Positions 1,358 to 5,120 are shown, counted from the stretch's first letter. The stretch is 64,000 bases of DNA from a virus (IMGVR_UViG_3300024299_000645:103437-167436), one strand, 5' to 3'. A program made the numbers and translations. The notes: a model not told the origin generated them from the letters alone.

Positions 1358-1387
1358 GTGGTCATCTACTGGGTGACCACCTTTTTC
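1358..1387 (+). terminator. Rho-independent terminator after gene 32
   Basis: Perfect stem GTGGTCA (1358-1364) / TGACCAC (1374-1380) with a 9-base loop, followed by CTTTTTC. It lacks a T-run on the opposite strand, so it should act on rightward transcripts only. The right half of the stem and the T-run lie inside the 3' end of the tape measure gene that converges from the other strand. Confidence 0.85.
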
Positions 1388-3669
1388 AATGAATCTTTTC
1401 GTGAACTAGTATCAAGGTCAGTCTGGAGGACGATGCCTTCGGTTTTGGTGGTGACTACTGAATTATCTACTACATTTACTGGTTGTCTATCTCTTTCTTG
1501 TCTTGCTAATTCCCTCTCTTCTTTTCTTTTTCTCTCCTCGGCCGCCACAAGTCTTTTATATGCTTCTGGATCATCTTTTTCCATTTTAGCCATTTGGTAA
1601 TGTTTTGAATCTTTACCGAAAATTCCTTTGGCTGCCTTTTTCCCTAAAAATCCCATATCCATCATCAACCTCGCAATAAATTGGGGAATTCTTCGGACGA
1701 AGGCAAAGACTGGTTCTAGAACATGATCGTAAATTGCATCGGTTGCCATTGTAAATAATTTTTTGATACCAGTAAATAAAGAAAAGTTACCATCTTTATC
1801 TCTTAGATTTTTATCAATAAATGCTACTGCATTTTTAAAATCGAATTTTTTTAATATCCAAGCAACTGCTTCACCTAATAGGTTTGGTATAGCAAACAAT
1901 ACATCGTCGAATACAGACTCTATACCGGCCCCTATTGCGCCTGTAATACCACCTTCTTTATATCCATCTACAATATTACTTATTACATCAAACGCAGAAA
2001 AAAGGAACCCAATAGGAATGAATACCTTACCAATAACTTTTGCGATCTTACCTACAAAACCTAAAATGTCTTTTAAGGGTTTGATCCAATCAGTTAAAGG
2101 AGCAATTATACCTGAAAACGTTTTTGCGGCTTTTGTAAGAATGCCGTCTTTAGGTCCGAATGCACCTTTGAATGAATCTCTAAAAGAATTAAAAGTTTTA
2201 ATTGGATGAGCTAATGCTTCTGCATTTAAAAATCCAAGAGCACCAAAGTTAAGTACGTTTACTAATTTGAAAAACCCTTTAGTAATTTTTAACATAGTAC
2301 CAAAGATATTATCAATGGCAGTTAAGAATCCAGTCTTTACTTGCATCAACTTACTACCTTCAGCAAACATTGGCATCTTAAAGAATGCTCCAAACCTTGT
2401 ACTAAATCCTGCTTTTGCTTTTACTATGCCTTCAGCAACATCATCACCTATATTGAAAATTTTAGTTTTCAATTTAGAAAACATACCTTGTTTTTTAATG
2501 ACAAGGTCATCAACTTTTGCAGGATCTAATCCTAACATTTTTATAATACTGGAGTTGAATTTTGTTTTAGCTAGTTTACCTGCATCTGCCGCTTCGTCAC
2601 TTATTTCTAATATATTAGCGTGCTTCTTCAAGAACTTTATTTTAGCTGCGTCGGATAATCCTTCTGCATCAGCAGCAAAAGCCAACATCTTAGATTGGGA
2701 TTTTAGAAACTTTAGTTTATCTTTTTGAATACCGTCAGTATGGTCAGCCATCCATGCTAACATTTTAGATTGCTTTTTCAAAAAGCCGGCTTTATCAGCA
2801 GCGGACATATCTTCAGCTGTATTCATCCACTTCAACATATTCGTCTGAGCATTGAAGAACTTCAATTTATTTGCATCTGTTAATTTTTCAGCATCAGTAG
2901 CCCATGAAGCTAGTCTACCTAGAGTTTTAGTAAAGTTGTTTTTTTGAGCGAGCGCAAATTTGTCTGTGTCTGGGCCAAATTTTAAAAACTTTCCTATATC
3001 ATCTGCAAATCCAGCCTTTTGTTTAGCAAGTTCATTAGGAAATTTTTGTTCAAAACCAAAGTACTTTTTTAAATTAAACCACATACCACTTTTGGTTTTT
3101 CCTAAATCTTTAACATCTCCAGGAGGAAATCCTAAGGCACCTTTGATTTTATCAAAAAAAGATGTCCTATGAATTTTCATATTATCAAGTAATTTTGTGA
3201 ACTGATCGCCAGTAAAAAAAGCTGTTATCGAATCTTTAAATAATGCTAATCCGGCTATAGCCGCACCGCCGAGTCCGGCAGCTAATCCACCCCAACTAAA
3301 ATCTAAGCCACCTAAGGATGGTGCTCCACCTCCTCCACCACCTTTATCTTTATCTTTAGCTAAACGAGCGGCTTCCATTGCTGCTTCTAATCGCTTTCGT
3401 TCAGCATCTTTAATAAAGTCAAGGTATTCAGCAAAGAGATCGGCAGTTCTAAATGTGTTAGCTTCGACTGATTGTAATAAATTATTACTCATATCGCCCA
3501 TGCGAATTGAGTTAGACCAATATTGTGTCTGCGCATCAAATGAATCTTTCATTTGATTTACAAACATGCCGCTAGAAATAGCATCTGCTCCTAATTGTGA
3601 AGACACCTCATCTTGCCATTTTTTACGGGCAGCATGTTCTTTTGGATCTGTTTTTACTGTCTCAGCCAT
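1366..3669 (-). CDS. Tape measure protein (gp29-like)
   Basis: A 767-residue, helix-rich protein directly downstream of gp26/gp51. It has a Gly-rich linker (about residues 110-118), a hydrophobic stretch (about 129-144), a Lys/Phe-rich middle, further hydrophobic segments near 570-650 and a charged C-terminal coiled coil. Residues 246-370 are five tandem 25-residue repeats, each starting with Phe and carrying a conserved ML or LA core. Position, size, helicity and repeats fit the tail-length ruler; T4 gp29 (590 aa) is the functional equivalent, but I see no strong sequence match to it. The ATG at 3669 overlaps the stop of the -1-frame gp51-like ORF by eight bases, so the two are translationally coupled. 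Confidence 0.78.
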   Translation of the reverse strand: MAETVKTDPKEHAARKKWQDEVSSQLGADAISSGMFVNQMKDSFDAQTQYWSNSIRMGDMSNNLLQSVEANTFRTADLFAEYLDFIKDAERKRLEAAMEAARLAKDKDKGGGGGGAPSLGGLDFSWGGLAAGLGGAAIAGLALFKDSITAFFTGDQFTKLLDNMKIHRTSFFDKIKGALGFPPGDVKDLGKTKSGMWFNLKKYFGFEQKFPNELAKQKAGFADDIGKFLKFGPDTDKFALAQKNNFTKTLGRLASWATDAEKLTDANKLKFFNAQTNMLKWMNTAEDMSAADKAGFLKKQSKMLAWMADHTDGIQKDKLKFLKSQSKMLAFAADAEGLSDAAKIKFLKKHANILEISDEAADAGKLAKTKFNSSIIKMLGLDPAKVDDLVIKKQGMFSKLKTKIFNIGDDVAEGIVKAKAGFSTRFGAFFKMPMFAEGSKLMQVKTGFLTAIDNIFGTMLKITKGFFKLVNVLNFGALGFLNAEALAHPIKTFNSFRDSFKGAFGPKDGILTKAAKTFSGIIAPLTDWIKPLKDILGFVGKIAKVIGKVFIPIGFLFSAFDVISNIVDGYKEGGITGAIGAGIESVFDDVLFAIPNLLGEAVAWILKKFDFKNAVAFIDKNLRDKDGNFSLFTGIKKLFTMATDAIYDHVLEPVFAFVRRIPQFIARLMMDMGFLGKKAAKGIFGKDSKHYQMAKMEKDDPEAYKRLVAAEERKRKEERELARQERDRQPVNVVDNSVVTTKTEGIVLQTDLDTSSRKDSLKKVVTQ
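2560..2934 (-). repeat. Five tandem 75-base (25-residue) repeats in the tape measure gene
   Basis: Residues 246-270, 271-295, 296-320, 321-345 and 346-370 of the tape measure protein share one register: F-L-K-x-Q-S-K-M-L-A-W, then an acidic turn, then an Ala/Asp/Lys-rich end. All five units are exactly 25 residues long. The DNA is diverged between units, so the repeat is old rather than a recent slippage product. Confidence 0.85.
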
Positions 3670-3856
3670 GTCTTTGTCTTTCTTCTTCCATACGTTGATT
3701 TTCTTCTTCTATATGTTCAATTAAGAGGGCAATATAAAGGTCTCTTTCGTAACACATCATATTTTCTATCTCAGTCAAACTCCATTTATGATTCTGTATT
3801 AGAGAAAAAATGGTTTTATAATAGTTAACTAAACTATTGTGACTGAGTATTAACCG
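3662..3856 (-). CDS. 51: gp51-like tail assembly ORF read in the -1 frame (frameshift extension of gp26)
   Basis: This 64-codon frame has no ATG, GTG or TTG near its 5' end. It is open only back to a TAA inside gp26, and the first possible start (a TTG) lies after conserved-looking sequence. The product contains NHKWSLTEIENM and CYERDLYIALLIEHI and ends in an acidic/basic helix, which resembles the short gp51 hub assembly proteins of T4-like marine phages. It follows the slippery heptamer at 3862-3856 in the -1 frame, so it is probably made only as a gp26-gp51 fusion of about 303 residues. Its stop overlaps the tape measure start. The coordinates give the first codon read after the slip. Confidence 0.72.
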   Translation of the reverse strand, partial: RLILSHNSLVNYYKTIFSLIQNHKWSLTEIENMMCYERDLYIALLIEHIEEENQRMEEERQRHG

Positions 3857-4572
3857 AAAAAAGCCTGTAGCCCCTCCAAGGCTACCTTGTCTTTTTTACC
3901 ACATTTTTCGCACTGCCAAGATACTTCATGTCTTAATTTAGGCATGGTATTAAAATAAGCAACAATCTTACCAAATTGATTTTGATTTAGACTGTAAATA
4001 AAATCTTCTAATTCTTGTTCGGTACTATTTTTAATATCATGATATTCTTCTTTATCATATATTCCAGCAATACATGCTTTGGTAATTTGAAAGATAGAAT
4101 CCATTTGAGATTCCTCTGCTGGTCTTGTCATTCTATCAATATCTGGATATCTTAATTGCACTGATATTTTATCATCAAGTTTAACCAGATCTTTATGGTC
4201 TTTATTAATATGTAATTTAATATCATTACAATTAATTTCAACTTGTGTGGTGCCATTACACCCATCTTTTTCATCAGCTGTTGGGTGTCTCATCCCAACT
4301 GTTATCAATTCACCTACTGAGCGCGCTCGTAAATTTAAAAATAACATTTCAACATCAAATGCTGGTAGGTCATTTGTAACAAGATCCTCATCAAGGCAAC
4401 AATTTTTAATAATTTGTTTAGTTGCAGTGACAATATCTTGCGTATCTCCACCTTCAAGTGCTGTTAATAAAATCTTTTCTTCTTTAACAAGAAAAGGTCT
4501 ATATTTAACCGGCCTATCTACGCTATGTAATTTGATCGTATAGGTCGGATTATCTATTACTGGTAAACTCAT
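3850..4572 (-). CDS. 26: gp26 baseplate hub / tail assembly chaperone
   Basis: A 240-residue protein of the T4 gp26 family. It has an N-terminal β-type segment with YRPFLVKEEKILLTALE, a VEMLFLNLRARSVGE helix and a C-terminal CxxC pair (WQCEKCGKKDK) that may bind zinc. In T4, gp26 acts with gp51 in hub assembly. The order gp26, gp51, tape measure mirrors the G, GT, tape measure order of other long-tailed phages, so a tape-measure chaperone role is likely. The last codons carry a slippery heptamer (see the frameshift feature), so a second, longer product is expected. It follows the tube-like gene with a 20-base gap. Confidence 0.85.
   Translation of the reverse strand: MSLPVIDNPTYTIKLHSVDRPVKYRPFLVKEEKILLTALEGGDTQDIVTATKQIIKNCCLDEDLVTNDLPAFDVEMLFLNLRARSVGELITVGMRHPTADEKDGCNGTTQVEINCNDIKLHINKDHKDLVKLDDKISVQLRYPDIDRMTRPAEESQMDSIFQITKACIAGIYDKEEYHDIKNSTEQELEDFIYSLNQNQFGKIVAYFNTMPKLRHEVSWQCEKCGKKDKVALEGLQAFFG
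3856..3877 (-). promoter_or_regulatory. Probable programmed -1 ribosomal frameshift signal
   Basis: In gp26 codon phase the minus strand reads T TTT TTC (3862-3856), a canonical slippery heptamer, three codons from the gp26 stop. GGAGGGG (3877-3871) lies eight bases upstream of the heptamer, the distance at which an internal Shine-Dalgarno stimulates -1 slipping in dnaX. A weak AT-rich hairpin (AATAGTT/AACTATT, 3838-3820) lies downstream. Confidence 0.75.
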
Positions 4573-4592: not shown

Positions 4593-5120
4593 TTATATCG
4601 TGGTCCATTTATGACATGCAAAGCTCACATTAAACTGACCAAGTGTGTTATTTGAATCCCATCCTAACGTGGTGGCATCAACGTTTATTGGGAATGTATC
4701 CATATATTTAGTACCTGTTGTTGCTTCTTCTTCACTAATCGATTCATTGGATTGATCAAATGCCAACACAGTTATATCGCCTTTATAATCATCAAAATAT
4801 TTCATATTTCCGGTTTCAGTTGGAACACAAAAATCCATCCATTTAATAAAAAAGTTTCTGGCTTCCCATGCATTAGTAATGATAAATTGTAATTGATATT
4901 CAGTGTAAGTATTTTCTCTTGCCATTTTACGAACAGGGCCATAATGTTTCAAATCTGAAGTAGCTATTGTTCTCGCACCTAAGGGAGCCTGATTACAAAA
5001 GAAAGTAAGTCCTGCAGGCAAATGAACCTTACTCGGTGGTTTTATTTTCGCCACGAATCTATTCATTGGGGCTATACCACCCGCCTCATCCAATTTAGCT
5101 AAAAAATCTGTCGTATTCAT
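4593..5120 (-). CDS. Tail-tube-fold protein (gp19/gp54-like)
   Basis: A 175-residue protein with the GP19-type pattern: LTFFCNQAPLGARTI, a TYTEYQLQFIITN strand, an FFIKWMDF helix and the C-terminal LGWDSNNTLGQFNVSFACHKW. The last motif matches the end of the gp19 and gp54 tube folds (x-L-x-W-x-x-N-x-x-x-x-F-x-V-x-F). T4 gp54 starts the tube on the baseplate. The location upstream of gp26 and the tape measure suggests a tube-initiator or tube-paralogue role rather than the main tube, which is probably one of the genes at 52967 and 53561. Its start overlaps the preceding gene by four bases. The family is reasonably sure, the exact T4 equivalent is not. Confidence 0.6.
   Translation of the reverse strand: MNTTDFLAKLDEAGGIAPMNRFVAKIKPPSKVHLPAGLTFFCNQAPLGARTIATSDLKHYGPVRKMARENTYTEYQLQFIITNAWEARNFFIKWMDFCVPTETGNMKYFDDYKGDITVLAFDQSNESISEEEATTGTKYMDTFPINVDATTLGWDSNNTLGQFNVSFACHKWTTI

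Follow-up and report, generated by a model that had tools for sequence, protein, structure and literature searches.

How does a T4-like phage make the proteins that T4 encodes in two genes, 26 and 51, when its own gp26-like gene is followed by an open -1 frame? The question is raised by a locus in a 64,000-nucleotide stretch of viral DNA (IMGVR_UViG_3300024299_000645:103437-167436; this whole stretch is referred to as the window). T4 has been given as an exception to G/GT frameshifting (PMC5009743, 2016). Judging from its sequence, the uncultivated phage in the window very probably obtains two versions, one short and one longer, of the same tail-building helper protein from one gene: some of the ribosomes would slip back by a nucleotide, as is known from other phages. 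The frameshift signal is common to most of the T4 relatives examined but not to T4's own branch. The site, its conservation, the selection that acts on the -1 frame at the protein level, the lack of a start in the window genome and the single gene copy are all directly visible.

Proposed recoding site and -1 frame in the window

The gp26-like gene (3850..4572, minus strand, as are all window features below) encodes a 240-aa predicted short tail assembly chaperone (TAC-N) that matches PF12322 (T4_baseplate) over residues 9-239 (E = 7.4e-58; 196 bits against a curated cut-off of 24.5) and phrog_150 ("baseplate hub," E = 2.6e-61). Its upstream neighbor (4593..5120) encodes a tail-tube-like protein (phrog_45, "tail tube," E = 1.8e-26). 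Directly downstream, a long ORF (1366..3669, 767 aa) encodes a predicted tape measure protein, identified mainly by its position, with Gly-rich and hydrophobic segments and a weak match to phrog_1047 (E = 9.5e-05). The resulting order, tube, gp26 chaperone, extension and tape-measure-like ORF, is also that of KVP40 and Rhizobium phage Y68, where a long ORF follows the tail.

The 3' end of the gene reads GAG GGG CTA CAG GCT TTT TTC GGT TAA, with the stop at 3852-3850. A slippery heptamer, T_TTT_TTC, lies in the gp26 frame at 3862-3856, and GGAGGGG, a Shine-Dalgarno (SD)-like putative stimulator, is located at 3877-3871, separated from the heptamer by an 8-nt spacer, CTACAGGC. Both elements had been pointed out in the first-pass annotation of this DNA and agree with the minus-strand sequence to the base. 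Past the heptamer, the -1 frame (3665..3856) translates as FFRLILSHNSLVNYYKTIFSLIQNHKWSLTEIENMMCYERDLYIALLIEHIEEENQRMEEERQRHG and ends at a TGA at 3664-3662. As had been claimed, it stays open for 64 codons, counted after Phe-Phe, giving a long form of 239 + 64 = 303 aa, the predicted junction peptide of which contains GLQAFFRLILSHN. The -1 stop had been described as overlapping the tape measure ATG (3669-3667); it sits 3 nt inside the tape-measure ORF, so that the two ORFs do overlap, by 8 nt, but the stop codon lies beyond the ATG. The statement that no ATG, GTG or TTG precedes the conserved core of the -1 frame holds: the earliest possible start is TTG, at tail codon 28 and already within the core, and the earliest ATG is codon 34.

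From base composition alone, 63 open codons would be expected with P ~0.004, so the single genome by itself is weak to moderate evidence. The -1 tail, however, matches phrog_634 ("baseplate hub assembly catalyst," E = 1.8e-25) as well as the C-terminal end of phrog_150, and we accept the extension as real because of the phrog_634 match and because all 80 independent contigs conserve it. The best-supported reading of the locus, with which the relatives agree, is the one originally proposed, a programmed -1 frameshift upstream of the tape measure gene. There is a strong probability that the gene is a tail assembly chaperone gene encoding the short TAC-N (240 aa) and a -1-frameshifted long form, TAC-NC (303 aa), for which the extension would be the C-terminal domain.

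The majority of ribosomes would terminate at the gp26 stop and yield TAC-N. In a minority, GGAGGGG would pair with 16S rRNA while the ribosome pauses on U_UUU_UUC, both Phe tRNAs would re-pair one base back (two-tRNA -1 slippage), and the 64 further codons would be read to give TAC-NC. By analogy with lambda G/GT, both forms would coat the tape measure protein, the extension would recruit tail tube subunits, and neither form would be retained in the virion. We infer these chaperone roles from lambda G/GT (PMC5009743) and from gene order, and frameshifting itself and its efficiency from the features of the site. Like lambda G/GT and the chaperones of other long-tailed phages (PMC5009743; Xu et al. 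2004, as cited therein), the window gene combines a short form and a -1 long form, a heptamer near the 3' end and a position between the tube and tape measure genes. It differs from lambda G/GT in its protein family (PF12322, gp26), in its poly-U heptamer, in the SD-like element inside the gene and in the downstream hairpin of some members.

An AlphaFold2 model of gp26, built from an alignment of IMG/VR rows only, had a pLDDT of 88.4. A Foldseek search of the PDB ranked 2ob9_B, the tail assembly chaperone of HK97, highest by probability (0.54; rmsd 3.0 over 62 columns), with an E-value of 1.9, which is not significant, and the likeness of the modeled fold to this chaperone is suggestive only. 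Against BFVD, the model retrieved gp26 proteins from across the superfamily and, more weakly, one gp51 (Acinetobacter phage ZZ1). Sequence searches of the PDB gave no match with the gp26 profile and only chance matches to unrelated proteins with the tail profile.

Conservation of the heptamer and selection on the tail

A scan of IMG/VR with gp26 yielded 80 loci of 36-80% identity. In all 80, the gp26 frame contains T_TTT_TTY and the -1 frame is open across it; the heptamer lies three codons before the stop, or five in three loci (L010, L023 and L049). The conserved -1 tail, NFALMQHHKYSLTELENMIPWERE, is cut by the contig end in two of the 80. Heptamer and -1 tail are also found together in KVP40, S-RSM4, S-H9-1, Desulfovibrio phage 7757, Menderavirus, Xanthomonas phage X1, Rhizobium phage Y68 (TTTTTTG) and Synechococcus phage ZZ01, and further in S-PM2, OLIVR6, ACP17, VmeM-32 (TTTTTTT), phiWae14, P-HM2 and AS-yj. 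A phase-correct U6 heptamer, 3-5 codons ahead of the gp26 stop and followed by a homologous -1 tail, is present in most of the sampled cultured phages outside T4's branch.

Constraint on the site was assessed in 78 deduplicated loci by comparison with the codon usage of the same genes. The codon preceding the Phe pair ends in T in all 78 (log10 P ~ -18.7) although the amino acid varies (Ser, Asp, Asn, Ala, Gly or Thr), and the first Phe codon is TTT in all 78, compared with 73% usage (log10 P ~ -10.5); both P values are overstated because the loci are related. The last base of the heptamer is C in 62 loci and G in one. An SD-like core occurs within 24 nt 5' of the heptamer in 69 of the 78 loci, and in the Glu-Gly pair upstream of the heptamer, Glu is encoded by GAG in 52 of 65 cases, against 26% GAG among Glu codons of the same genes.

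Selection on the tail was estimated over -1 codons 4-17, ahead of the core. Across 469 pairs, 263 of them usable, dN/dS was ~0.25, and between the window and its nearest relative (L001), it was 0.10/0.73. These ratios indicate that the -1 frame is under purifying, protein-level selection that begins ahead of any start codon.

This bears on the possibility that the tail is made on its own as a small protein, through an internal start or termination-reinitiation, which is how the "gp51" of many cyanophages is drawn in GenBank. At the gp26 stop, a TAATG or TGATG places an ATG in the -1 frame in KVP40 (L082:3829-3834), Rhizobium phage Y68 (L087:3691-3696) and Menderavirus (L086:3730-3735), and tail codon 5 is an ATG in 26 of 74 relatives. 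The window, however, has no candidate start before codon 28, an SD-like 4-mer precedes the first -1-frame ATG in only 1 of 73 relatives, and the annotated starts fall at differing internal ATGs. Reinitiation accounts for neither the frozen heptamer nor the selection 5' of the starts, and in T4 gp51 the tail is joined to a gp26-like domain, with the boundary at the same place (see below). We therefore regard a separate tail protein as quite improbable. Comparison across relatives, which the first-pass annotation had proposed as a check, thus came out in favor of frameshifting on both points, the retained heptamer and the scarcity of usable starts. A separate gp51 ORF with its own ribosome-binding site was rejected for the window and is a possible auxiliary route where TAATG/TGATG overlaps occur; since heptamer and stop/start overlap are found together in KVP40, Rhizobium phage Y68 and Menderavirus, a free tail could also arise there by reinitiation.

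None of the annotated phage records examined contains a joined CDS for gp26 and the tail; public annotations overlook the recoding signal or draw the tail as a separate gene. In cyanophages, "gp51" annotations are missing or take an arbitrary internal ATG as the start (57, 44 and 30 aa; L093:3220-3393, L083:3064-3198, L099:3289-3381 and L084:3014-3188), which shortens the conserved -1 frame.

Downstream RNA structure and the T run

The 51 nt immediately after the heptamer form more stable folds than synonymous randomisations do, with a mean z of -1.59, compared with -0.25 to -0.39 at offsets of at least 14 codons. Stems of at least 8 bp occur in 30 of 77 loci, against 3-16 in 20 synonymously randomised sets. 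In 25 loci, an 11-bp helix begins 5-6 nt after the heptamer, with 80.7% standard pairs (27-48% when slid), a percentage that is inflated because these loci were picked partly for showing a stem, and with a covariation score of 0.273 (0/500 shuffles). Compensation within the helix is apparent as third-position changes in Ala codons that track Val/Glu/Ala changes in the opposite arm. No single stem common to all loci was found in an ungapped register, stems being shared within subgroups only. A covarying hairpin just downstream of the heptamer is present in part of the group.

In the window itself, the candidate hairpin (3820..3838; 7-bp AATAGTT/AACTATT with a 5-nt loop, 17 nt downstream of the heptamer) is weak and not significant (z -0.64). 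It is predicted in the window and in L001-L003, and a paired G-C/A-U change separates the window from L001 and L003 from L002.

A run of six or seven T is present in every canonical member, as would be expected if RNA polymerase slipped on the T6 run and a subset of transcripts gained one U. Against such slippage, the X_XXY_YYZ phase is held even where the heptamer lies five codons before the stop (L010, L023 and L049), the T run is mostly not lengthened beyond the heptamer, as its predominantly C-ending last position shows, and the flanking SD-like element and the downstream hairpin (in part of the group) are stimulators of ribosomal frameshifting; we consider polymerase slippage highly improbable. 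The chance that a sequencing or assembly error in this homopolymer of a metagenomic contig (an IMG/VR virus record) has split one in-frame gene, an error in the six-T run having been named at the outset as what would refute the frameshift, is practically nil, and this explanation was rejected, since 80 independent contigs and many cultured phage genomes share exactly this arrangement.

gp26, gp51 and gene copy number in T4's branch

Seven phages that carry gene 51, from T4 to RB49-like phages, lack the heptamer and serve as a natural control. The Phe-Phe pair is retained as TTC TTT in the T4, Klebsiella, Proteus and Melville phages and is lost in the Acinetobacter, RB49-like and Aeromonas 50AhydR13PP phages. 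GAG TTT TTT does occur in one T4-like contig (L128), where the -1 frame encodes a different protein instead of the tail.

In T4 gp51 (L081:2150-2899, annotated "baseplate hub assembly catalyst"), PF12322 spans residues 1-201 (E = 3.9e-52) and a tail of ~50 residues comes after it; five more gp51 proteins likewise have the PF12322 domain. The match of T4 gp51 to phrog_150 extends along the entire protein, including the tail, and phrog_634 matches both T4 gp51 and the window tail. The tail profile aligns with residues 200-243 of T4 gp51 (hhalign E = 3.9e-05), so the domain boundary of gp51 corresponds to the frameshift junction. Going by these profile matches, T4 gp51 is a full-length gp26 paralogue ending in the tail. 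The first-pass annotation had described the frameshift product as a gp26-gp51 fusion; it was right in that the product is an extended form of gp26, but since T4 gp51 is already a complete gp26-like protein with the tail, the product would be the equivalent of gp51 rather than gp26 joined to gp51. T4 and the window phage would encode the same proteins in the same short/long relation, T4 with two genes and the window phage with one gene and a slippery site.

Gene copy number follows the same division. The 167,436-bp record from which the window is taken contains a single PF12322 gene, as does each of nine other sampled non-T4 phages, against two in T4. A search of the same record for a second, hidden PF12322 gene found none, and a stand-alone gp51 gene of the T4 type is absent. 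In the protein tree, T4's branch is represented by six gp26 and six gp51 sequences, which fall into two groups, and a 99/98 branch divides these from every protein of the single-gene type; the tree, the root of which is not resolved, has the minimum number of changes between the types. According to record taxonomy, KVP40 and Emmerichvirinae belong to Straboviridae, as does T4, which makes an ancestral frameshift and one duplication the simplest reading. On balance, we favor a scenario in which the frameshift would be ancestral in the whole T4 superfamily and would persist in the cyanophage, Rhizobium, Menderavirus, KVP40-like and Emmerichvirinae lineages. T4's branch would have swapped it once for duplication (26 and 51), with the heptamer lost and Phe-Phe kept in several phages, and the clade containing Ackermannviridae would have drifted to a non-canonical -1 site. 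If duplication replaced an ancestral frameshift in this way, T4's exception to the frameshift rule would be a derived loss.

The relation to the general tail-assembly-chaperone system, which had also been put forward, is supported but not new. The chaperone genes of T4-like phages were named by Vladimirov, Gautam and Davidson (2022, Virology 566:9-15), and as cited in PMC10885494 and PMC12846349, that work already equates gp26 and gp51 with TAC-N and TAC-NC. According to PRFect (PMC10885494), after the same work, some T4-like phages do not frameshift but carry two genes, one short and the other a longer fusion, and PMC12846349, also citing it, mentions the TAC-N genes of T4-like phages as known carriers of poly-T slippery sequences. 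To judge from these citations, the distribution of the frameshift among T4-like phages is probably already known at least in part. A literature search that did not extend to Vladimirov et al. (2022) itself found no description, in those words, of a gp26 frameshift in cyanophages. In Pseudomonas phage Adele (Vandenendeviridae/Andersonviridae; PMC12846349), there is likewise a conserved poly-T -1 site with the downstream ORF misannotated as a separate gene, and the case was made from conservation alone; Adele belongs to other phage families, and its motif is GTTTTT.

The present analysis adds the statistics, the anatomy of the stimulators, the natural control, the split in copy number and tree, and the non-canonical clade. 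In T4, the "hub assembly catalyst" gp51 resembles the long form, and the "hub subunit" gp26 the short form, of a single chaperone; elsewhere in the superfamily, the majority of sampled lineages appear to produce both forms from one gene via a recoding signal. This shows where T4, the best-studied phage with a contractile tail, deviates from a nearly universal rule; the ratio of long to short form becomes directly testable in T4-like phages, and the annotation of hundreds of genomes can be corrected.

The non-canonical clade, which comprises Ackermannviridae and two related lineages, has a homologous -1 tail and lacks the canonical heptamer (L090:3771-3965, L107-L121, L088:3680-3896 and L091:3640-3884). 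Its sites read GA[GA] ATT TTC ATT TAA, TCA CTT TTC AAG TAA and AGA CTT TTC ACT GTT TAA. The -1 tail of Ackermannviridae has no early ATG, and the site of this type perhaps involves single-tRNA slippage on U_UUC.
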